Positions 3,331 to 55,149 of a stretch of DNA of 64,000 nt are shown here, piece after piece. Location: NCBI RefSeq assembly GCF_000003815.2, contig NC_049979.1:11075381-11139380 (forward strand). The letters run 5' to 3'. Each line of letters opens with the position of its first letter. The first letter of the stretch is position 1. A program made the position numbers and the translations under genes. This stretch comes from Branchiostoma floridae. Lineage: Eukaryota > Chordata > Leptocardii > Amphioxiformes > Branchiostomatidae. The notes beneath the pieces were generated by a model that worked only from the letters and a program-made list of their open reading frames with translations, ran no database searches and had not been told where the DNA came from.

Positions 3331-5500
3331 CAGTCTTTCATATCTTCCATTCAGTGGACATGGCCGACCGAATCATTCCAGTAGGTCGAACTAGATGGGA
3401 CATTTGAATATTGACCACATTTTTGTAGTAAAACAAAAGGTAAGAGAAAAAACATGTACATACACTTTGATTTGATTTCATAATTTTCCTCCTCAACACC
3501 CGTAGCTAGCAGTTTCATAGTGCCCACCGTCCTCATAAAGAACGTAATAATGCTCCTTTTCATATTTAACCAACCCTGTATATTTGTACCATAGACGTTG
3601 CTGCTACTTTGTTTGAATCCCTCTTTCCACTAGAGCATGTGACCGCTAAGAGACCAGAAATTTTACAGACCTCAGCGAATCTCAAAGATAAAGATCTGGT
3701 TTGTTTACGTTTTGTGTGTTTTGATGTCTTTGGAACGTAACCATACTTTAACATCTTCCATCATGTTTCAATTATGAAGTCAAGTGATTTTGATCACTGT
3801 ATGGTCTCTCATTGATCGCCGCCTAGTGGAAAAGGGCCTTACAGCTATGTATTCGAATACCTGTGTATGTCTTGTCAAGAGACACTTGTATAATTTCTTT
3901 CATTCAAAAAGATAACATATGAAAAGGTACAAATTAACGTAAAGAGACGTAGTGGCGGTGACCTCAAGTTTTGGCAACTTATATTAACGCCACCACTTGT
4001 ATAATGGAAAGTAGAATATTAAATAAACAAGATTGTAAATACATTTAGTAAATGAATAGATTAATGAATACGTTAAGTATCGGTGTGAGTTCAAACCCCT
4101 CCCGGCATAAAAGAAAGCCATAAAGGACATATGTAATAAGAAGCGCTTTGTTTCTATGATGTAATGTTGACTAGCTAACATAATTGTATAATGATTGTAA
4201 ATCTGTATAATTTGTTGTGCAGTTGTAATTGTCGATCACAAAAATTGGTTGGAAATACTCGATAAAACTATCAAACAGTGGATGTCACAAACTGTCTAAC
4301 ATGAGGATCAGTTGGACTTCGTGAACAAATAGTAACATTGTACATAGTTGTGAGATATTCTATTTAACTGATGCGTTTAATATAGCTGTGTTGCATGTTT
4401 ATGCAGATGTGTGCAAATTTTGCAATGTCGTCGTATCGTTCTCAGAAGAGTAAACTAAATGGACATTCTCTGATTTATCATATAATTAAAAAATACAAAA
4501 CATTATCATAGGTTTTAAACGATTTTCCGTTCAAAATAGACCGATAACGTCACTGCGTTTGGAAATTCAAACAAAAAACAACCACTAAAATGAACCAGGC
4601 GTATTGTTGACATGAAACATCGCCGTACGTGTTTTGAACGCACACCGCACATGGCGTCATCTGTCCGAAGTTGGCGCCATGCCAACATTAGGTCACCTGC
4701 GTGTGTGATCAGGTATCATGTACAAAACAACACAACACAAGATTGTTTTTATCTGTGTCACTCGAATGAAAATGTAGATGTAAAACAATTGTAGAAATGC
4801 TGCACTGCATTTTGTATTTTCTTTACGACTATAGAACTCGAACCAAACACACGATTTCAGACATGTTTAGTGAAGATTGTTTATTTGGGTAAAAGCCAGC
4901 CTTGAAGAAATAATTTATCCTCTGTAATTGCTTGTCAGTGTGTTGACTAAGTACAGGCGGGTGCACCGCCAACAATGTATGCACTGCCTACCTCTTGTAA
5001 AGGGAGTGGTGACAAATTGTGGTCCTTGGAAGCAATGTTTGTTCACAGGTTAGAGACAGCCTGATTTTTCTGATTGTCGCTCGGCCTTGCTTGAACCTCC
5101 CCTGAGCACGTTGCATACGTGCGAGGCACCACGTTGTTTTGAGTTGTTTGATGTTATAATAAGAAGCTTGTACGTTGAGAGGGTTAGGGAGGCTTGATTG
5201 CTCTCGAAGTAACCAAAGTGTGCTACACAAATCTGTACATTGTAATCTATTTTGTTAGATCTTTCAAAAGCAGGATATCACATTGCTATAGGATTGATGT
5301 AATCATATTGTGGCAGATAGCAAATTCCTTCTGAATCACGCACTTTGTAAGAACTCTTCTGTTAGCTTGTATCTGCCATTGTTGCTGTTAGCACAATCAT
5401 CGTGAATACTTCACGCTAAATGTTATCATATCATTGTATGTTTTAAGTTATACGTATGCAAAAGTGTGCCTTGTAATAAATGTATATACGTAACGTTACA
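3331..5500 (+). other. Probable long 3' UTR with AATAAA at 5475
   Basis: Downstream of the stop at 3328-3330 the sequence is AT-rich and has no convincing ORF. A canonical AATAAA lies at 5475-5480, in TTGTAATAAATG. If it serves the orphan gene, the 3' UTR is about 2.1 kb. No closer canonical signal was noticed. The boundary is inference from the signal alone. Confidence 0.4.
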
Positions 5501-6351
5501 CAAAGCCTTGTCTGTCGCCAATTTCATTGTGAGTGGTTGCACAAATGTAGTTGTCAATGTAGGCATTGGCAAACACAACTTCGTGAGGAAATGATTATTG
5601 AAGAAGTGTTGTGACGGTTGGTGTGGATGAAATTATAAACAGGGCCACCCTTTAGTACAGCTATACACAAGGCTGTGTATGTTTGTTTTACTGGGTTCAG
5701 TGACCGCTTGAAGAGGGATGCCGTAATCGTGGCGACCAAGGACAGGGTCTGTACGGAATAGAGCCGCATCCTGAATCTTTGAACAGTTACTATGGTTAAA
5801 CAAACCATTTTCAACAGTCAGGAGACTAAGCAATAACAACGTCACAAGGCTTTGGCACAAAGCCAGTAATCAAACCCCAACCATGCCAGATGCACAAGCA
5901 GTTCTCCAATGTCGTTTTATACAAATAGTAACCTAGTAGCCTAGCATAAGCTACTAAGCAGCAGAGGAATGGGTTGATGGCTACCGGCGCAAACAACCTC
6001 CTCTTATTAATTGATATCAAACAGCGATATAATAGATTCCGATGATGGTGTTGAGTGTTGAGGAGTAAGGGGTGCTTTCCCTAGTGCTCAAATGGCCTTT
6101 CAGTTGTTCATAGCTTTCCGTGAAAAATATATAACTGAGCGCTTGTTACTATATTGATGGTATTGGTGGTTATGGGTTAAATCAATTGCATTATTTCTTA
6201 GATTTTACGATACACACGTATGATGCTTCTTTACAATGGGGCTGTTACAGTCGTTAGCTTTGGCACAATATCTTGTAGTGAGAGTATTCAATGTTCTACT
6301 GTACTTTAGTGGAAACCAAGAGAATGTTGTTCGACTAGAAAACTAAATACA
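5501..6351. other. Gene-free stretch
   Basis: AT-rich sequence with only short open frames, none with recognisable domains. I see nothing else in it. Confidence 0.5.
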
Positions 6352-14206: not shown

Positions 14207-17119
14207 TTAGATATCATTATTTTCATACACTAACTGAGGAGCATCGTCTGCTGCCTGCCCGTCGTCATTTCCATAGATGACATCTGAAGCAGCAGGTTTT
14301 GCCTGTTTGTCGTTATTCCTGTATATGGCTGATGAGGCTGCGGACACTGCTTCCTCCTTTTGATTCTCATATATAAACTGAGAAGAAGCATATGATACTG
14401 CCTCAGTCTCATTGCCAGACTTACGGTCCAACCGAGGAGGAGTAGATACTGCCATGTCACCATCATCGTTCCCATAGATGACACGACAAGCAACAGATTT
14501 TGCCTTTTTACGATTATTCTTGTAGATGGCTGTTGAGGCAGTGGACATTGCTCCACCATTGGCATTCCCATAGATAAACTGAGATGAAGCATCTAGTTCT
14601 GCCTCATCAGCCTCGTCGCCATCTTCAATGTTAAACTGAGAAGGAGTAGTTTCTGTCTCCTCACCTGCATACCTATTGATGGCCTGAGAGTTTTCAGTAT
14701 TCTCATCCACGTGCTTGTCATCAAGGTGTGATGTCTCCTCGTCATTATTTTCACATGTAAATGGCCTATGGACTGTAACGTTAACTGCCTGAAGTGCCGA
14801 TTCAGGTGGATGTTCTACCTTTGGACCTACAGTTCCTCGAGCGGGAGGACCTGCTAACTTATCATCCTCGTGTTTGTTAGCTTGTTTGGTTGCACTTGTT
14901 TCCAATACTTCGCCATTCTCGTATATGAGAGCCTGATCAGTTGTTCCTACTTCCTCGCTATTCTCATACATATTAGCTTGGTCACTTGTACTAGCGGGGT
15001 AGTGGGTGTTGCCAGGGGTTGGCAATCCACCCTCCTGCCCTTGTATATCTTTGCCATTTATCACAACTGTGTTCATATTGTTAGGAATAGAAGCAAGTGC
15101 ACAGACCAAAGGAGGCTTTCTGGACCTACGGCGAAACAGGGCGAAAACAACGCCAAATATACTCAGCATTGCAGCAATGGCACCAAGACCAATCGACAGG
15201 GAAATCTCTACCGAGTCAGTACTGATTTCTGCCTGGTCAGTCGGAGAGGATGCAGACGAAGCAAACTGGGAGAAAACTGAAGATGGGCCTTTGATGTCAA
15301 CAGTTAGTGTGGCAGATGTGGATCCAGCAGGACTCATTGCAATGTAGCTGTACAGATCGGCATTTGCCGCAGTAACATTTGTTATTGTAATAGTAATTGT
15401 ACCATTCACCTCTACAGTTACTCTCCCACTTGACTCATCAACGCCTGTGTCGAGTCCAGATGGGAGAATGACCGTAATGTTTGATGAGGGTATTCCTTTA
15501 TACACTAAACGGAGAGTGACACACCAAAACAATGTGTTATTCTTGATCCTCTCAAACCTCAAAGTGATTGGGTGTTCAGACAGTGTCGCAAATATTGCCG
15601 GGCTAATGGCAGCAGAAGTGTTTCTATCACCATATTGTGAAGTTGTTGATATGGCTGATGACATGTTACCATCAGCAGGCAGGGTGCCAAGTGTTGAAGT
15701 TGTTGATATTGCAAATGTTGGAATTATAATATCAACAGACAGTGTAGCAAATGTAGAGCCGACATGATTTGCTGCAATGCAGACGTATAAACCAGAATCT
15801 GCTTTAGTAAGATCCCTTACAATGATGGTACCGTTCTCATTCACGATAACTCTCTTATCTGACTCAACTGTTGCGTTTCGTCCGGATGGAATAATGACCG
15901 TTATGTCTGGTTTAGGAATTCCCGACGCTTTGCAGTCCAAGTTCAATGCTTTCCCACGAATCAGCGTGATATCTTTTCTTCTTTGAAAACTAATGACTGT
16001 CGGTTTTTCACAGGTCAAATTTTCGGGCTCTAAATCTTGAAGCTTTAGCCCACGGAAGTTACTGGGTTCTTCACAAATGATTTCGTTTTCAAACAACTGA
16101 GACCCGGCCATCCATGACCTGAAGGCAGCCATCCTACAATCACACTGCCAGGGGTTGTTGTGCCAGATCAAAATAGTATCCTTGGGTAGGTTTGAAAATG
16201 TGTCAGGCTGAATGATAGTGATTTGGTTATATTCTAGGCATAGCTCTTGTAGGCTTGGGAGATTTGAAAGTGTACCGGGTTTAATCTTATGTATATGGTT
16301 ATATGGTAGTTCTAAATGTTCGAGCTTAAGAAGGTTTGAGAATGCACCAGGCATAATGTTAGTTATCTGGTTTGAGGCCATCTCCAATTCTTCGAGCTGG
16401 CGTAGGTGTGAAAATGTACCCGGTTGAATGACAGATATCTGGTTGGACTCAAGGTCCAACTCTCGCAGCGTCGGTATCTTTGAGAATGTATCAGACTCAA
16501 TGTTAGCTATCCGATTTTTGCTCAGGTCCAGCGTTCGGATCCTTGGTAGATTTGCGAATGACTCAGGATGAATGTTAGTTAGATGATTCCGACTCAAGTA
16601 CAATCGTTCAAGCTTGGGTACATTTGTGAATGCGCCAGGCTGAATGTAGGACACGCTGTTGCCTAACAGAGTCAACATTTCAAGACTGGGTAGATTTGAG
16701 ATTGCACTAGACGGAATGCTGGATATATTGTTGTGGCGTAGGAACAGTTCTGTCAGCTTGGGTATATTTGTGAATACACCAGCCTGAATACTCGATAGTT
16801 TATTATGAGTAAGGTACAAACGTTCAAGATGAATAAGATTTGAAAATGCCCCAGGCTGTACAATAGCTATCTGGTTACCGTCGGCCAAGAGTGTTGTCAA
16901 ACTGCTGTACCTTGAGAGATCAGGCGAAGATAGGCTTGTGATGGCATTGCGCCCTAATTGAAGGGTTTTGATACTTGTAGGTAGATTTTGAGGAACACTA
17001 CTAAGGCCTCTGTTGGTGCAGACACAGTATGATGGACAGCTGCTGCTACATGGTGTGGTTGGTCCAGATTTTAGGATGATCAGTAGAAGAACCAGCCTTA
17101 TCTTTAGCTTGCTGGACAT
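14207..17119 (-). CDS. LRR and Ig domain transmembrane receptor with nine YxN motifs (970 aa, single exon)
   Basis: A type I receptor read from an ATG at 17119 without introns. Residues 1-23 are a signal peptide. A Cys-rich LRR N-cap (CSSSCPSYCVC) follows. Then come eleven leucine-rich repeats of exactly 24 residues (about 50-313) and an LRR C-cap (NNPWQCDCRMAAF, about 320-370). Ig domain 1 (about 374-464) has both cysteines (LNLDC and LYVCIA). Ig-like domain 2 (about 515-609) has FWC but LYSYIA, so the second cysteine is replaced by Tyr. A membrane helix at about 640-662 is followed by RRRSRK. The 300-residue cytoplasmic tail is acidic and has nine Y-x-N motifs (Tyr 718, 733, 850, 866, 882, 917, 933, 949, 965), the Grb2-type SH2 consensus. 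LRRIG receptors are strongly expanded in amphioxus; ligand and partners are unknown. It converges with the MFSD6-like gene and diverges from EMC7. Confidence 0.9.
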   Translation of the reverse strand: MSSKLKIRLVLLLIILKSGPTTPCSSSCPSYCVCTNRGLSSVPQNLPTSIKTLQLGRNAITSLSSPDLSRYSSLTTLLADGNQIAIVQPGAFSNLIHLERLYLTHNKLSSIQAGVFTNIPKLTELFLRHNNISSIPSSAISNLPSLEMLTLLGNSVSYIQPGAFTNVPKLERLYLSRNHLTNIHPESFANLPRIRTLDLSKNRIANIESDTFSKIPTLRELDLESNQISVIQPGTFSHLRQLEELEMASNQITNIMPGAFSNLLKLEHLELPYNHIHKIKPGTLSNLPSLQELCLEYNQITIIQPDTFSNLPKDTILIWHNNPWQCDCRMAAFRSWMAGSQLFENEIICEEPSNFRGLKLQDLEPENLTCEKPTVISFQRRKDITLIRGKALNLDCKASGIPKPDITVIIPSGRNATVESDKRVIVNENGTIIVRDLTKADSGLYVCIAANHVGSTFATLSVDIIIPTFAISTTSTLGTLPADGNMSSAISTTSQYGDRNTSAAISPAIFATLSEHPITLRFERIKNNTLFWCVTLRLVYKGIPSSNITVILPSGLDTGVDESSGRVTVEVNGTITITITNVTAANADLYSYIAMSPAGSTSATLTVDIKGPSSVFSQFASSASSPTDQAEISTDSVEISLSIGLGAIAAMLSIFGVVFALFRRRSRKPPLVCALASIPNNMNTVVINGKDIQGQEGGLPTPGNTHYPASTSDQANMYENSEEVGTTDQALIYENGEVLETSATKQANKHEDDKLAGPPARGTVGPKVEHPPESALQAVNVTVHRPFTCENNDEETSHLDDKHVDENTENSQAINRYAGEETETTPSQFNIEDGDEADEAELDASSQFIYGNANGGAMSTASTAIYKNNRKKAKSVACRVIYGNDDGDMAVSTPPRLDRKSGNETEAVSYASSQFIYENQKEEAVSAASSAIYRNNDKQAKPAASDVIYGNDDGQAADDAPQLVYENNDI

Positions 17120-34100: not shown

Positions 34101-37100
34101 TCCAGTAGAATCGCTGATTCTACTAGTACAGATTGCGATCGGGATCTCTCCTAGGACCAAGTAGGATCTCTTGGAAGATGGATCTCTTGGAATAGGGTCT
34201 GCATGCCTTTTTCCGTTAAGCGTTACGAGCCATTTTAATTCACCGTTAATCGTTACCGACCCGCTCTAATTCAACGTTAATCGTTATCGGTATATTCATC
34301 GTGAAGCGTTATTGGTCGTTTTAATGCAACGTTAATCGTTATTTGTTATCCCGAATTCACCAAGAAATTCTTCGTAACCCGTTATATACACGAAGTCTAA
34401 TGCCAGATAGAACCCCTGAGAATGCAGGAAATGGCGTTTCAAAGGGTCCATGTTTCAAAATTTCTCCGAGGCCCCCGGCCTTCAGCTCCGGACAGGGTAA
34501 AATATGTTGTGGAAGCGTTGCCTTCAAAAACTTTATCACTCATACAGATTTCAGTGTCAAGCTTAGTTTCGGGCAAAAAGTACTCCTAGAATGCAGAAAA
34601 TGAGGTTTCTCCGGATCTCTCTTGCGACGGCTTGCGCCCTTGGCGCTTACGACGACATGGCGAAAATATGTTAGGGGCGTGGGTTTTCGCACAAAAAAAT
34701 CTTTTCTCTCTAATAAAATCTAATTTAGTTTCGTCTCACAGCAAAATCTGTCCTTCAAAAGTCCAGATTTTAAAATTTCCCTGGACTTATATTGCAACGT
34801 CTCGTGCCTTCCGAGCTCGAATCTAAATGGTAAAATATGTTGGGGGCTCTGGGGCCAAAGCTATAACCATGTGTGATTTGATGAAAATGTTAAAATCAAC
34901 CTAGCTTGGTCGGTCGGCAAAATTTGCCGAAAAATGCAAGAAAAAGCATTTAAGAGGGTCTTGATTTTAAAATTTTCCCGGGGAAGCATACCCCCGGACC
35001 CCCCTGGGATGCGTCGCGCCTTTGGCGCTCCATGTGCTGAAACGATAGTTCAATCCCTCCATAAGTAATTTGCTACCGCCGTCTCTGTGGCTGGCCGGGA
35101 ACTCTAGATCTGCCTCCGTCAATTTACAGATGTCATGGACATTGTCCCTCTCATTCCTCCGGGTTCTGGTCACCTTTTGCTTCTCACAATGTCATTAAAC
35201 GGATATTTTCACCCATTGATATAACTACTCTAGCGCTGTATGAATATGAATGTTACTTAAGTGCTATGCGTTGTAACTCCTTCTGAATTAACCGTTAAGC
35301 GTTACCGGGCCTCCTGAATTTACCGTTAAGCGTTACCGGGCCTCCTGAATTCACCGTTAAGCGTTACCATGCAGACCCTCTTGTAAGAGCGGCTAAGGCC
35401 AACATGGTATTTTCCAGTTTAAAAATGATGGTTATTGATTGATCGAGTGATTGAACTTTAGATGTTTGAGTCAAACATTGTTTTAAGACCAAAATTGCTG
35501 TCAGTCATGTCAGTCAGTCATGTTCTCTGTAGCATTTGGAGGTCAGAGGTCAAGTTGAAATAAAGATATGGTAGGCCCGCATAACTTGATTGTTGTTTAG
35601 TTTGCCACATATCCAGCATTCAAATGAAGTCCATCCTTGACACGCTTCTTCTTCTATTACAGGAACATTTTCTGTCAAAAGATCTAAATCAACTTGTACA
35701 TGAATCCTCAACCCACCATGGACTTTGGAGGAGTGGGCGTTGACACAGCTGACCAAAGAGGCTGTACAGGCTGTTCTGCTGGTCAGGCTGGGCTCTGGCC
35801 TGCCATGGAGCTGTTGATAACCAGAGGTTCGGGTGTTTACTCAACTGACCAAAGAGGCCGTACAGTACTGCATCTTGTTGCACAGGCAGGGCACTGCCGA
35901 GCTATAGAGCTCTTATTAAACAGAAGGGTGCGTATTCATGCAACGGACCAAAGCGGCCAGACAGCATTACATCATGCTGCCTATGCAGGGCACTGTCCAG
36001 CTATGGAGCTGTTATTGGACAGAGGGGCGAGCATTGATGCAACTGATAAATTAGGCTGTACAGCATTACACCATGCCGCTCAGGCCGGGCAATGTCCTGC
36101 TATGGAGCTGTTATTGGGAAGAGGGTTGTGTGTTGACACAACAGACCGAAGAGGCCGGACAGCACTGCATCATGCTGCTCAAGCAGGGCACTGTGGAGCT
36201 ATGCAGTTGTTGTTGGACAGAGGGGCGAGCATTGACAAAACTGACCATAGAAGCAGGACAGCATTACATCGTGCTGCCTGTGCAGGGCACTGCCCAGCTA
36301 TGGAGCTGTTATTGGGCAGAGGGGCGAGCATTGACGCAACTGATAAAACAGGCTATACAGCTCTGCATCTTGTTGCTCATGCAGGGCACAGTGGTGCTGT
36401 GGAGCTGCTATCCAACAGAGGGGCGAGCGTTGACAAAACTGACCAAAATGGCTGGACAGCATTACATCATGCTGCCTGTGCAGGGCACTGTCCAGCAATG
36501 GAGCTGCTATTGGAAAGAGGTTCAGGTGTGAATACAGCTGACCAAAGAGGCGGTACAGCACTGCATCATGCTGCTCAGACAGGGCACTGTGACGCTATAG
36601 AGTTGCTATTGGGCAGAGGGGCGAGCGTTGACATCACTGACAAAACAGGCCATACAACACTGCATCTTGTTGCTCAGGCAGGGCACTGTCCAGCTATGGA
36701 GCTGTTATTAAACAGAGGGGCGAGCATTGACAAAACTGGCCAAAGAGGCCTGACAGCATTACACCATGCTGCCTATGCAGGGCACTGTCCTGCTATGGAG
36801 CTGTTGTTAGACAGAGGTTTGGGTGTTAACACAACTAACCAAACAGGCCGTACAGCACTGCATCTTGTTGCTCAGGCAGGACACTGTCCAGCTATGGAGT
36901 TGTTATTAAACAGAGGGGCGAGCATTGATGAAACTGACCAAAAAGGCAGGACAGCATTACATCATGCTGCCTATGCAGGGCACTGTCCAGCTATAGAGCT
37001 GTTGTTGGACAGAGGGGTGTGTGTTGACACAAGAGATCAAAGTGGCCGTACAGCACTTCATTATGCTGCCTGTACAGGGCACTGTGGCGCTATGGAGCTG

Positions 37101-40100
37101 TTCTTGGGCAGAGGGATGTTGGACGTTATGGACGTTGACATAACTGACAAAACAGGCCGTACAGCACTGCACCATGCTGCCCAGGCAGGGCACTGTGGTG
37201 CTATGGAGCTGTTGTTGGACAGAGGGGCAGACATCAACATAACTGGCAACTCCAAGCGATCACCTGGCAAGACAGGCCTGACAGCACTTCACCTGGCTGC
37301 AATCAACAGTCGCTGTGCTGCGATTACCCTTCTCTTGGACCGGGGTGCAAACTTGGAAAAAAGGAACATGCTCGACCAGACAGCACTACACTTCGCTGCA
37401 AGTAGAGGCGACTGTGACCATGTTGGATTGTTGCTGAATCGAAACTTTGGTGGAGCCAGTGGGCCTTTAATGGACAAAGATCTGTTGACAGCTCTTCATC
37501 AGCAGACCTCTGTGTCTACAGAAGAAGGTCATCGTGTTGCGATCACGCTCTTGTTAGATAGACAAGCGGATATAGATGCTGTTGATCATTTTGGCTGCAC
37601 TCCCCTACATTATGCTGCCTTGAAAGGGAGCAATGACCACATTCTCCTCTTGTTGGATAGAGGTGCAGACCTTAATGTGCAGAATAGTTATGGTCAGTTT
37701 CTACTTCACTCAGCAGCATTGGGCGGGCATAACGATACCATCAATTTGCTGTTAGATCGTGGTGTGGAAATTGAAGCAGAGGAGGTCTCAGGCAGCACAG
37801 CACTCCATCTAGCTGCACGGTACGGACACCAGGAGACTGTCAAGTTGCTGTGTTCATGCGGTGGGAACCTGTCAGCAAAGGACAAGTATGAGGACTTGAC
37901 TCCTCTTTTGGAGGCTGCTTCGAACGGACACTGCAATGTTATTGACGTCGCCTTATCATTAGGTGCTACATTGGCTGAGAGGGATTTTGCTGGCAACTCA
38001 GTGCTTCATTGTGTTACAACTCGTGACCCGAACACAGCGCTGAACACTGTTACTCATTTACTGGGTCTGGGTGCGGATGTGAACGCAAGGAACGAAGTTG
38101 GCGAAACAGCGCTTCACCATTTCATTGATTCAGAAGAATGCTCCTTGAAAATGGTAGAAGCATTCCTTCTGGCGGGCACAGACTGTAACCTGAAGGACAT
38201 AGATGGTCTGACACTCTATGACGTGGTGCCAGAGGATACAGACCTTCAGAAACTCCTGCTTCATCATCAAAAACATCACCCTGACCTGAAGAGATTGTGT
38301 CGGGCAAAGATCCACAGTGCTCTCCGTAAGAGTGGGCAAGAAGAATCTGAAATCAACCAGTTTGCAATACCCAAAGAACTGAAGGACTACCTATTATTCA
38401 GAGCTATTTTCTAAGTGCTGTGCAGCCTGCTACTTCCTTGAACAGTTTCAGTAGTTTAGCAAGGCACAAGCTTACAAAGTTCTTTGTACCAAGTGTTTCG
38501 ATTGTTATAGTGCTATTATCATCATGTCTATCAAGCTATTTGGTTTCTTTTTAGTTTGCTTTTTGAATAGAATGATAGTCTGACTACATGTGTTTCTTAT
38601 GTATCTTTAGTAGTTCTGAGGAACAAGTAATGGGATATTGAAAAAGTCCTGGAGACAACAAATTCCTTTTTACCTGCATGTATGCAGGTATGGTTTTGAT
38701 GCTGGTGGGAACTTTTCGGTAGCCGGGGATGTAGGGCGCTGTATCTCGTGAACGGATGGTGCGAGCACAACGATTTTTGGTACGTGGGTTGGGGGTGGTA
38801 GCCTGACACTCAGGTGTGATTTTGGGCCTCCTGGCGCTTGACCTTGACATTGAAGGTGGCATTTTTGGTGTTTTTGGGGCACTTTTGGCGCTGTGTGTCC
38901 GGAACGATACGCGCGATTGCGACGATTTTTGGTGCATGGGTGGGGGGTTGTTGCCTGTTGCCTAGGATTGACTTTGGGCCTTGTCGCGTTTGAACTTGAC
39001 CCGGCAGGTCGAATTTTGTGTCCGGGAGGGGTGTTTCCGGAGTTATATCTTCTGAACGGCTGGTGCTGGCGCGATGATATTTGGCACATGTGTCGGCGGT
39101 GGCTGAATAATGCTCAATTTTGATTTTGGCGCCCTTGGTGCTTGAACTTGACATTTTAGGTTACCTTTTGTGCGGGCACGGGGCGTGCGCTGTATCTCCG
39201 GAATGCAAGGTGCCATTGTGTTGCCATTTGGTACGTGAGTTGTTTGTGGTGTCCTGGTGGTCAGGTTTGATTTTGGGCCTCCTAGTGCTTGAACTTGATA
39301 CTGTATAGGTTGACCCTGTTTTAGTGTGGTTGGGGCATCCTCCCAATATCTGCTTGGTTTTAAAAACAGATGATGGTTGGGTGTAGAACCATCATCTGGC
39401 CTGGGCCACCTTCAATGTATCAGGTTACTTAGTGGCACTGACAGTTTGCCAGATGACGGGAGTGTGCCAGATTATATATCTGTTGGTCAGGTATAATTGG
39501 AGTTTGCTTATTACTCTTTGTGGTGTTTCTAGAGCTGTATAGTACTGAGTTTTAAGTTCCGGTACAAGTTCCTTTACCCTGTTGGCAATCATGGTTGAAC
39601 TTGAACTTAAACAGAAGAAGATGCAATTTTCTAATGTGGAGGAGAACTGTATAGAGTGTGGGCATAAGAGAAAGGTATGTGTATGATTTGTCCTGTGTTT
39701 CTTTTTGTTTCTTTGGTAATGCCATTTCCATACTGTATACAGGTAATTTGTTGTTTTGGGCTAGTCATATTCGCTTGGTTTTTGGGCCTGCTTAATCTAT
39801 GGTACAGGCAGGGTTAAGTGGTGGAGGCTTAGCTTTGTTCTGTTTTGAATTCAGTATCGTTGCATTTTGTCGCGGCAAATATATGATGAAATTCCCCTTC
39901 TAAGCAACTGCTCATTGGTTTGCGGGGATGTTTGCTGGGTGTTTGCTCTGACTACAACAGCTTCTGAACTTTTCAAAGCTTCCATTGCCAGCAGCTTGCC
40001 ATCTATAAATGGGATTGACAAGGACATTTTTCATAGTAAATTGTGCTGTTAAATTTGGCTTAGATACTACAGGAGATTTAGGTTTGGGTTGGATGGATTG

Positions 40101-52049: not shown

Positions 52050-54734
52050 TTATCGCCTGTTGTGATTTTCCAGAAGCGCAGCATGTCTTTGTGGCCTCAT
52101 TTGGTCCATCTTTCGGAACAGCTCTTCAGGCGTCGGCCGCTTTGTTGGGTCGACTATCCAGCAGGACCTGATGATGCGGTACACCGACAGCGGACAGTTC
52201 TCCGGCTGCTGCAGACGGACTCCTTTCTTCAGCAGCTCCAATAGTGTGCACACGTCCGGGTGCAGCGGCCCGCCAGCATAGCGGGGCTCCTCCCCAAAGC
52301 TGGCGATCTCCCACAGCAGCACGCCGTACGACCACACGTCACTCTCGCATGTGTACACCCCGTCCCGTAACGACTCCAGGGCCATCCACTTCAACGGCAA
52401 CAACTCCTCCTCCCCGCCCTGGTTGGTACGTTTGTACGCCGACGACACGTAAATGTCACGCGACAGCCCGAAATCCGCGATCTTCGCCACTTTCCTGTCG
52501 CTGATGACAATATTACGAGCTGCGACGTCCCTGTGCACGATCTTCAGACGTGCCAGCTCCGATAGCCCACAGGCTACGTCACAAGCAAACCCCAGGCGCT
52601 CCAACAGTTTGCTATTTCCCGTGGTCTTGTAGTGTTCGCGCAGACTCCACAGGTACCGTCGCAGTTCTTCATTGCTCGCGTACTCTACAAGGATGTACTG
52701 AGGCTCAGACTTGGTAACAACGCCATAAAGCTTCACCACGTTCGGGTGTCCCTCTTTGTCCTCGTGGATCCTGGCGAGGATGTCCATTTCGCGGCGAAAG
52801 TCACGGACAGCAGAGGCTGTCATGCGCTCGGGCCGGATACTTTTGGCGGCCACCAAAACCTGGTAGCCTTCGGGCACGCGCAGTTTTCCCCGTACCACAT
52901 GGCCGAACTCTCCCTCACCGATCATGTGTTCGAACTGAATGTCCTCTTTGTCTACTTCCCATGGTGAAAGAGTTTCTATCATGTTTAAGTCTTCAGCTGG
53001 GTGTTCAGGTCTTCGACGACCCCGTCTTACCAGGATACCGGTCACTATACATCCGATTAGAGCAATGGTCGGGATAACGGACGCCAACACTACAACAACG
53101 ACTCGGTTCTCATCAGGAATGGAGACGTTCTGACAAAACTCACCCGACTGTCCTTCAGCACAAATACAGCTTCCATTCACTGAATCACACGAAGCGTCGT
53201 TTTCACATTTGCACTCCAAGCTGCAGTTGAACCCGAATGTGCCAGGTGCGCATTTGTGCTCACACCTGTCTCCATGACGGCCCGGAGGACATAGACAACC
53301 CTCCCACCTGTCACACGTCCCGCCGTACTCACAGTCACACACTTGGCTGCAAACTTCCCCATGGTAGTTAGGTCGGCATTCCGTAGCGTTCAGAACGTAA
53401 GTCGCATTAAACAGTTGTTCGTCTTTCGCCTGTACCAGACAACTATATCTACCGTTATCCGATTCTAGGATAGTTTGAAAGCTAAAGGAACTGTTCTGTA
53501 CGTTCCCTTCCTCGATGACTTTTGTGTCGTTCTGTCTGTTACCTATTTGGTAAGCCCAAGTCATATTTGCTACGTGGATGTTTGCAGCCAGACAGGTTAG
53601 TGTCAGATTGGTATCGATGTACTTCACAACTGAATCACCAGGTGTCTCTACGATGACGACCTCAGGCCAGGGAATATCACAGGCTCGTCCTCTCCAGCCA
53701 GGACGGCACTTACAGGCACCGTTAAAGCCATGGCAACGGGCTCCGTTCTTGCAAACACAGTCCTTGTCACAGTACAAACCGTACCGACCCTCAGGACATC
53801 CTGTAACGTTGTACTGAAATGTGTACACAAGCTGATTTGTTCCCCCATTGAGCGCGATGTTAGCGCTACATCGCACCCAGTACGGTGATGTGGACCATAT
53901 ATCATTTAACTCTATAGTAATGACATTGCGGTCACCTTTATCAATTTGAAAGTGACCACTTCTTAGCCATTGGGGGTAGTCTTCATTGAGAGAAATGTCA
54001 AAAAAAGAAATCTTCCCTTTATCCTTCCTCTCTCGGTCGTGACACTTTAGTTGAAGCCTACCTTGTTGTGGCCCTTGGAGCAGCGAGAAGAGTGTAGTCG
54101 AGTCTGAATCCCATTCGCTCCCGGTAATAGCGATTCTTGCAGAACAATCATCTTTCAATAGGAAGTTACTCGGAAAGTTCCTCGCGTATTTCCTCGAGGT
54201 CTTAAGATAGTCCCGGTATGACAAAAATTGATCTCCGATTGAAACTTGGATTCCGTCACTGCTGAGTACGGTATAATACCCGCCCCGCTGTATGCCCAAA
54301 AGGACTGGCGCTTCGCACCGTTTATCATAGAATGGTGGGTATCCCGGCACGTCTATCACTTCAATGACGATGATCACGTACAGGACAGTCCTATAAGTGG
54401 TGTTTGTTAGCTCCACCGTCAGGTTGTATCGCGAGTGGAACTTGTAGTCCAGCGGAGCCGCCAAAATCAACGCCAAGTCCTCCGCACGAACCCCAAACCG
54501 CCCCGAATCGTCCCCTGTGGTGATGTTTACTGACCAAAACGCCCCATTGCCGCCTTGTGCAGAACCAACGCTGGCGTTGAGAAAATCTCTCAGCTGCACC
54601 ACTGTGCTACCAACTGAAACATCCTCGGGTATTGCGACATTTTCCACCAAAACGAAAAGTTCCTGATAAGCATGGAGACCAGATAGCAGCACGACTAGCA
54701 GAAGTGCCGCACTGAACGTCCCATGTCGTGTCAT
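52050..54734 (-). CDS. Intronless receptor tyrosine kinase with cadherin-like, EGF and Ig domains
   Basis: The frame gives 894 aa from the ATG at 54734 (codons further upstream open only with GTG). Residues 1-22 are a signal peptide. A cadherin-like domain (about 25-130: VGSTVVQL, GRFGVRAEDLALILAAPLDY, YNLTVELTN) is followed by an unassigned region (140-305), an EGF-like module (313-353, CPEGRYGLYCDKDCVC), one Ig domain (358-450, LTLTCLA and YSCLV) and two or three EGF modules (453-537). A membrane helix lies at about 545-570. The kinase (597-885) has GEGEFG, VAAKS (Lys 631), HRDVAARN (Asp 736), DFG (754-756) and LPLKWMALES, so all catalytic residues are present. The EGF modules look Tie-like and the cadherin-like start recalls RET, but neither assignment fits the whole. 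It lies between the two SLC1A copies on the same strand. Ligand unknown. Confidence 0.92.
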   Translation of the reverse strand: MTRHGTFSAALLLVVLLSGLHAYQELFVLVENVAIPEDVSVGSTVVQLRDFLNASVGSAQGGNGAFWSVNITTGDDSGRFGVRAEDLALILAAPLDYKFHSRYNLTVELTNTTYRTVLYVIIVIEVIDVPGYPPFYDKRCEAPVLLGIQRGGYYTVLSSDGIQVSIGDQFLSYRDYLKTSRKYARNFPSNFLLKDDCSARIAITGSEWDSDSTTLFSLLQGPQQGRLQLKCHDRERKDKGKISFFDISLNEDYPQWLRSGHFQIDKGDRNVITIELNDIWSTSPYWVRCSANIALNGGTNQLVYTFQYNVTGCPEGRYGLYCDKDCVCKNGARCHGFNGACKCRPGWRGRACDIPWPEVVIVETPGDSVVKYIDTNLTLTCLAANIHVANMTWAYQIGNRQNDTKVIEEGNVQNSSFSFQTILESDNGRYSCLVQAKDEQLFNATYVLNATECRPNYHGEVCSQVCDCEYGGTCDRWEGCLCPPGRHGDRCEHKCAPGTFGFNCSLECKCENDASCDSVNGSCICAEGQSGEFCQNVSIPDENRVVVVVLASVIPTIALIGCIVTGILVRRGRRRPEHPAEDLNMIETLSPWEVDKEDIQFEHMIGEGEFGHVVRGKLRVPEGYQVLVAAKSIRPERMTASAVRDFRREMDILARIHEDKEGHPNVVKLYGVVTKSEPQYILVEYASNEELRRYLWSLREHYKTTGNSKLLERLGFACDVACGLSELARLKIVHRDVAARNIVISDRKVAKIADFGLSRDIYVSSAYKRTNQGGEEELLPLKWMALESLRDGVYTCESDVWSYGVLLWEIASFGEEPRYAGGPLHPDVCTLLELLKKGVRLQQPENCPLSVYRIIRSCWIVDPTKRPTPEELFRKMDQMRPQRHAALLENHNRR

Positions 54735-55149
54735 CTTTTCTTTATCGGGCAGTGGCACTATAATACCACGTTTCCTTCCTCTGTCGACTTGTCAACAATT
54801 TTTCCGTGTCACCTTCTCTTATCAGGAAGCCAACTAACGTTACTGATGCTTGTCTTGTTTCCTCTTCTGTTGGACTGCCACATCCTCGGGTATTGCCCAT
54901 CCATTTCCCACCAAAACGAAAAGTTCCTGATACTCCTGGATGCCTCTTTCTTATGGCTAGACAAAATCAAAGCAAAATAGTCAATTTCACTGCTCTTTGT
55001 CTCAATGACGGCCCGGAGCACAATGGACAACGAAAGGTTGCTCGCGGAAATAGGTTTGAAAAAATTAAAATTTAGTACTCACCTTAGGCTGCCATGTTGT
55101 TGTATAGACTTTACTTTATCCAAGTACGTCGTCGTTGGATTCATTTACA

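Follow-up and report, generated by a model that had tools for sequence, protein, structure and literature searches.

A stretch of 64,000 nucleotides of Branchiostoma floridae DNA (NC_049979.1, positions 11,075,381 to 11,139,380 of the forward strand), which we call the window, carries on its minus strand a single open reading frame (ORF) of 970 codons for a receptor with leucine-rich repeats (LRR), immunoglobulin (Ig) domains and a C-terminal tail containing an array of tyrosine motifs of the form Y-x-N (Table 1). We refer to it as the window gene. Its LRR block is followed by an Ig domain, both scoring above the Pfam cut-off, and then by a second Ig-like stretch for which Pfam returned no separate match; by eye, the window gene has Tyr at both positions where relatives such as those at loci L003 and L009 have the Ig cysteines of this stretch. 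Hydropathy identifies one transmembrane helix (maximum 2.42 in the scanning window that starts at residue 643, peak 643-661) with the basic stop-transfer stretch RRRSRK shortly downstream, followed by a tail of 309 residues that is predicted to be cytosolic and disordered. Relatives in the same genome are about 50 % identical to the window gene over most of its length.

The first-pass annotation of this DNA described nine Y-x-N motifs in the tail, mostly preceded by Ile, Val or Leu, placed on a 16-residue ruler and distinct from an immunoreceptor tyrosine-based activation motif (ITAM). All nine are there, at residues 718, 733, 850, 866, 882, 917, 933, 949 and 965, and they take up 9 of the 12 tail tyrosines. 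The spacing is exactly 16 within 850-866-882 and 917-933-949-965, and the residue before Tyr is Ile or Val at eight of the nine sites (Met at 718). Shuffled versions of the tail contain 1.08 such motifs on average and none of 200,000 reached nine. The array is not compositional; the shuffle does not count nine separate origins, the motifs being partly copies of one another through duplication and thus not independent. The motif Yxx[LIVM] was searched for in the whole tail and found nowhere, which rules out an ITAM, with its paired YxxL/I, as the annotation had said. The inhibitory counterpart (ITIM), [ILVS]xYxx[ILV], is ruled out by the same result.

The two clusters had been taken for duplicates of one three-motif block, and the array for a product of internal duplication. 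Duplication is borne out by two DNA copies of 170 nt that are 73 % identical at an offset of 201 nt, equal to 67 codons. The block itself has four motif slots instead of three: each copy spans 67 residues, with slots at 850, 866, 882 and 899 or at 917, 933, 949 and 965, and the fourth reads R-K-S in block 1 (899), where the Tyr has been lost, and Y-E-N in block 2 (965). Over 68 compared codons we count 35 residue differences, 9 synonymous changes and 24 identities; all three shared Tyr and all three shared Asn are retained, and a single Asn codon among them differs synonymously. The copies are old: a crude lag self-comparison of the whole tail gave no lag above threshold, and Tandem Repeats Finder, applied to the window gene, detected no array there. 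When the tail was scored with the non-motif positions of the unit, decayed slots came up at 831 and 749-750, with weak signals at 815 and 789; about four decayed slots can be recognised in this tail. Taken together, the decayed slots and the block comparison suggest that the array was probably longer in the past and that sites have since been both gained and lost.

We searched the genome itself (513 Mb, 431 contigs) for relatives and joined matches into clusters at 3 kb. This yielded at least 111 matches in at least 46 clusters including the window gene, at least 31 of them on C5; the match count is a lower bound since 47 of 1935 candidates were scored, and one cluster is not necessarily one gene. 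Of the genome, 56 loci were read, several overlapping, and 25 with tails homologous to that of the window gene were aligned with it, an alignment that excludes L019 (a 472-residue ORF without Y-x-N) and the more distant L028. The claim that few receptors carry so many copies fails within this genome. The 26 tails of the window-gene clade hold from 1 to 9 Y-x-N motifs, 13 of them at least seven, and the window gene shares the highest count of nine with L050. Beyond the clade the counts rise to 11 (L042), 13 (L045) and 21 (L040). In a midpoint-rooted tree of 26 ectodomains the window gene falls into a group with 17 others (support 99/99), and L040, L042 with L026 and L027, and L045 lie outside it; the long branches of L040, L028 and L045 make their placement uncertain.

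Across the 26 clade tails, Asn stands at +2 for 148 of 308 Tyr compared to 24 expected from composition, a count in which the units are related by descent and the tail starts are partly set by eye. The same tails have 9 Yxx[LIVM] among the 308 Tyr and no YxxM. Two other LRR groups, both chosen by eye, served for comparison. Seven genes, three of which (L001, L004, L006) run off the end of the locus, have 35 Yxx[LIVM] and 9 Y-x-N among 64 Tyr, and four genes with Y-W-P-W repeats have 6 Y-x-N among 71 Tyr.

The main finding is the repeated building of such arrays, rather than the nine sites or the 16-residue spacing of the window gene. In the gene at L040 (on C9) there are 21 Y-x-N; 19 of its Tyr follow one another at exactly 16 residues, within an array of 17.9 copies of a 48-bp unit that match at 86 %. 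In L045 (C7) 13 Y-x-N follow a unit of 17 residues, in L042 (C180) 11 Y-x-N follow a unit of 20, as in L026 and L027 (C5), and L025 has a 22-residue unit with Y-E-N. With units of 14, 15, 17, 20 and 22 residues in related tails, we reject 16 residues as a functional ruler and read it as the length of a repeat unit, not a conserved docking distance.

Chains of units picked by their Tyr are circular for Tyr, and we used instead units anchored on non-motif residues in the last 540 residues, with anchors written after viewing the sequences. Tyr is kept in 18 of 18 anchored units of L040, 9/10 of L042, 7/8 of L026, 9/10 of L027 and 8/10 of L045; the figures for Asn are 13/18, 10/10, 8/8, 8/10 and 9/10. 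Matches to the 16- and 20-residue arrays adjoin at C7:15.235 Mb (in one open frame of 1147), near C7:21.11 and 21.12 Mb, at C5:8.78 Mb and at C9:10.748 Mb, the last (L040) being the one of these loci that was read. The differing unit sequences and the tree suggest several separate origins of the arrays.

Table 1. Features of the receptor gene in the window (positions count from the first letter of the window; aa, amino acids)
Feature	Position	Strand	Basis or remark
Single open frame, 970 aa, LRR-Ig type I receptor	14207..17119	-	ORF reading, Pfam, relatives
N-terminal hydrophobic segment, probable signal peptide, aa 1-23	17051..17119	-	reading of sequence alone
Leucine-rich repeats, aa 62-313	16181..16936	-	Pfam LRR_8 2.6e-89; LRR_14 62-313
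Ig I-set domain, aa 380-463	15731..15982	-	Pfam I-set 8.4e-15
Second Ig-like stretch, ~aa 513-612, approximate limits	15284..15583	-	by-eye paralogue comparison
Transmembrane segment, aa 641-661	15137..15199	-	hydropathy
Predicted cytoplasmic tail, aa 662-970 (309 residues)	14210..15136	-	hydropathy; homologous tails in 25 paralogues
Y-E-N 718-720, proximal	14960..14968	-	Tyr 21/25, Asn 25/25 paralogues
Y-E-N 733-735, proximal	14915..14923	-	Tyr 9/25, Asn 25/25 paralogues
Degenerate slot 750-752 (H-E-D), register by eye (scan favoured 749)	14864..14872	-	gap in 25/25 aligned paralogues
Lost site 789-791 (C-E-N), weak in slot scan	14747..14755	-	Tyr in 22/25 paralogues
Degenerate slot 831-833 (I-E-D)	14621..14629	-	unit scan
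Repeat block 1, DNA copy	14437..14606	-	73 % identical to block 2, offset 201 nt
Y-G-N 850-852, block 1 unit 1	14564..14572	-	motif scan
Y-K-N 866-868, block 1 unit 2	14516..14524	-	motif scan
Y-G-N 882-884, block 1 unit 3	14468..14476	-	motif scan
Degenerate slot 899-901 (R-K-S), block 1 unit 4, without Tyr and Asn	14417..14425	-	unit scan
Repeat block 2, DNA copy	14236..14405	-	pairs with block 1
Y-E-N 917-919, block 2 unit 1	14363..14371	-	motif scan
Y-R-N 933-935, block 2 unit 2	14315..14323	-	motif scan; +2 is Asp in 18/20 aligned paralogues
Y-G-N 949-951, block 2 unit 3	14267..14275	-	motif scan
Y-E-N 965-967, block 2 unit 4	14219..14227	-	Tyr 0/25 paralogues (21 gaps, 4 Cys)

Several further observations were made along the way. 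In L040 the coding 48-bp tandem repeat covers positions 5318-6174, and a second frame across the array is also open, for 366 codons. Four LRR genes (L033, L034, L039, L041) end in NTYWPWEIPGEGTRNTPRRASLPL-type repeats about 28 residues long, with up to 13.2 copies in L033, where hydropathy finds no transmembrane segment. In a third LRR group (L001, L031, L032, L044, L046, L048) repeat units of 37-68 residues carry QYED[IVM] or MYAGV, which are Yxx[hydrophobic] contexts and not Y-x-N. Elsewhere in the window, reading of the translations alone suggests two other ORFs: one (52050-54758, minus strand) resembles a receptor tyrosine kinase and has a kinase domain besides EGF-like and Ig-like stretches, and one (35694-38414, plus strand) has 906 codons and ankyrin repeats.

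A docking array should keep its Tyr and Asn while the linkers drift, as the annotation had proposed for orthologues. Paralogues stand in for orthologues here. Taking the Tyr and Asn columns from the window gene alone, and identity as the match of a paralogue to it, we found identity in 25 paralogues of 140/182 (0.77) for Tyr and 132/176 (0.75) for Asn compared to 2508/5786 (0.43) for the rest of the tail. Of 20,000 random column sets drawn from that rest, 79 equal or exceed the Tyr mean and 199 the Asn mean, using the eight sites that each have enough rows. Between the window gene and its paralogues, the ratio of nonsynonymous to synonymous differences (pN/pS) comes to 0.41 at Tyr columns, 0.17 at those of Asn (+2) and 0.82 in the rest, with column classes chosen by family majority and hence biased towards conservation. 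When all family pairs are considered, Tyr columns are again slow (33 of 20,000 draws).

The expectation thus holds for Tyr and Asn against the tail at large, and a series of results weighs against going further and taking Y-x-N itself as the unit that is kept. The paralogue counts are not independent. Identity at the flanking positions is almost as high, 128/181 (0.71) at -1 and 123/176 (0.70) at +1; on this alignment the motif core of four residues is conserved as a whole, with Tyr and Asn only slightly above their neighbours, and the test therefore points to a conserved core, not to Asn in particular. Over all family pairs, no clear slowing of the Asn columns relative to linkers is seen (1409 of 20,000 draws). 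Sites also turn over: at 933, Asp occupies +2 in 18 of the 20 paralogues aligned there, and at 850 Lys does so in 7 of 23; residue 882 is His in 9 of 22, and Tyr is found in 9 of 25 at 733 and in none of 25 at 965. Among the cells formed by nine slots and the paralogues, both residues are present in 125, Tyr alone in 40, Asn alone in 39 and neither in 2 (odds ratio 0.16). Of the 41 cells that lack Tyr, 39 retain Asn, and of the 42 that lack Asn, 40 retain Tyr; an obligate Y-x-N pair is not supported. The uncoupled losses weaken the case for an obligate pY-x-N unit, with the qualification that separate recent losses would give the same pattern. At the end of the L009 tail, finally, a 14-residue unit with R-V-Y-[DG]-G keeps Tyr without Asn, and L010 looks alike by eye; this repeat, of the type EAVSSPEFNRVYDG, has Gly at +2 and forms an array without the Grb2 consensus.

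Ile or Val at -1 and Glu or Gly at +1 resemble the substrates of Src-type kinases. We hypothesize that ligand-driven clustering would allow a Src- or Syk-type kinase to phosphorylate the [I/V]-Y-[E/G]-N units, that Grb2-type SH2 domains (Grb2, GADS) would dock on pY-x-N, that several sites per tail would permit cross-linking via the adaptor and SOS-like partners, and that the output would be set by the number of intact units and not by their spacing. Phosphorylation, the SH2 reader, cross-linking and the output of the tail are all steps that we infer. Many tyrosine units at varied spacings occur in the family, which suggests that number, not distance, is the common feature.

Grb2-type docking is favoured by the theory of LAT valence and by the presence of suitable partners in amphioxus. 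YXNX is a Grb2 SH2 site in LAT, and according to that theory valence decides whether large Grb2-SOS1-Grb2 aggregates form, a gel phase being predicted for the trivalent and not the bivalent case (PMC3291652). Amphioxus has a Grb2 that is 74.77 % identical to the human protein and associates with an LRR receptor (PMC10199209), as well as GADS and SLP-76 (PMC5431462), and in Jurkat cells one of its LRR receptors is phosphorylated through Lck (PMC8211107). Against this, the Grb2-associated receptor, FrLRR, is described there with a predicted C-terminal transmembrane or glycosylphosphatidylinositol site (PMC10199209) and therefore cannot serve as a precedent for a pY-x-N tail. Where Nck and Grb2 sites lie relative to each other was found to matter in a different system (PMC9333988), and spacing indifference is therefore a prediction, not a result.

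It is conceivable that the repeats have no such meaning. In a neutral minisatellite, slippage or unequal exchange would have multiplied Y-x-N as a passenger, with copy number of no functional consequence. The fast linkers (pN/pS 0.82), the 17.9 copies of a 48-bp repeat in L040, the many unit lengths across the family, the decayed slots, the uncoupling of Tyr and Asn and the unrelated tail arrays of other LRR genes, such as 28-residue TYWPWEIP repeats, are all in line with this explanation. It is nevertheless doubtful, given that Tyr and Asn are more conserved in paralogues than columns outside the motifs and that L040 kept its Tyr in 18 of 18 anchored units despite copies that match at 86 %. 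Alternatively the phosphotyrosines may be read through Tyr and its near context without regard to Asn at +2, by another SH2 or PTB domain or in a kinase-scaffold role. The 40 cells with Tyr and no Asn (for example Asp in 18/20 at 933 and Lys in 7/23 at 850), the conservation of -1 and +1 nearly to the level of Asn and the existence of R-V-Y-[DG]-G arrays speak for such a reader. It is made unlikely by the excess of Asn at +2 (148 of 308 Tyr, some six times what composition predicts) and by the conservation of Asn columns relative to the window gene.

The window gene could also be a decaying relative whose tail is drifting: it is the sole match near C1:11 Mb among the matches listed, sites 789 and 899 are lost, and by eye Tyr replaces Cys in the second Ig. 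Its 970 open codons, its nine sites, the highest number of the 26 clade tails and shared with L050, and a Tyr at 965 found in none of 25 paralogues render this very improbable. We regard it as an even call that the window gene encodes an innate-immune-type LRR-Ig receptor with a multivalent phosphotyrosine tail for Grb2-type adaptors, LAT- and LAX-like but within a receptor, with in-frame tandem duplication having built the array and still adding and removing sites, and with expanded arrays of other unit lengths in several members of the family.

Phosphotyrosine site number and spacing requirements are best known for LAT and a few designed tails. Here one genome provides a natural series, its related receptors ranging from 1 to 21 in the number of Y-x-N units and from 15 to 22 in unit length, and the valence question is therefore directly testable. 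A Grb2-type array, if that is what the tail holds, would here be part of a pattern-recognition-like receptor in an invertebrate chordate. Signalling strength may be tuned by the gain or loss of repeats. More tentatively, we speculate that minisatellite-like coding repeats might act as a dial for signalling valence in a chordate receptor family: the number of pY-x-N (1 to 21 in the tails read) would evolve apart from the ligand-binding ectodomain, would have been built up anew on several occasions from units of differing length, should vary between individuals and would set the threshold for adaptor cross-linking or condensation.

The adaptors LAT, LAB (NTAL) and LAX have a very short ectodomain and no large ligand-binding one, and a juxtamembrane CxxC for palmitoylation; both features define them. 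The window gene has about 640 residues before its transmembrane segment and a tail that starts FRRRSRKPPLVCALAS with no CxxC, and is therefore not a member of this group. The likeness lies in a membrane-anchored tail with several Grb2 sites, the window gene having nine Y-x-N. LAT carries three YXNX sites and LAX five among its ten Tyr, and valence sets Grb2-SOS1-Grb2 aggregation (PMC3291652). The window gene differs from all three in bearing its array on an LRR-Ig receptor, built from repeats, with 9 sites and up to 21 in relatives. The immunoglobulin tail tyrosine (ITT) motif of membrane IgG also has the Y-x-N form and is an amplifier beside ITAMs. Both it and the array of the window gene are Y-x-N in a receptor tail; the window gene has many motifs and no ITAM. 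The ITT is described as recruiting Grb2 to the antigen receptor (PMC4263166). BbLcLRR is likewise an amphioxus LRR receptor with tyrosines phosphorylated through Lck; it differs in its ITIM or ITIM-like motifs, its WSC domain and its inhibitory action, and no Ig is listed for it (PMC8211107). Titles and abstract openings in the open-access literature gave no description of such arrays in amphioxus receptors. A further likeness is in the same genome, where LRR-Ig receptors of this family share the order of LRR, Ig, transmembrane segment and homologous tail, mostly at about 50 % identity, and where the number of array units and the unit length are specific to each gene.

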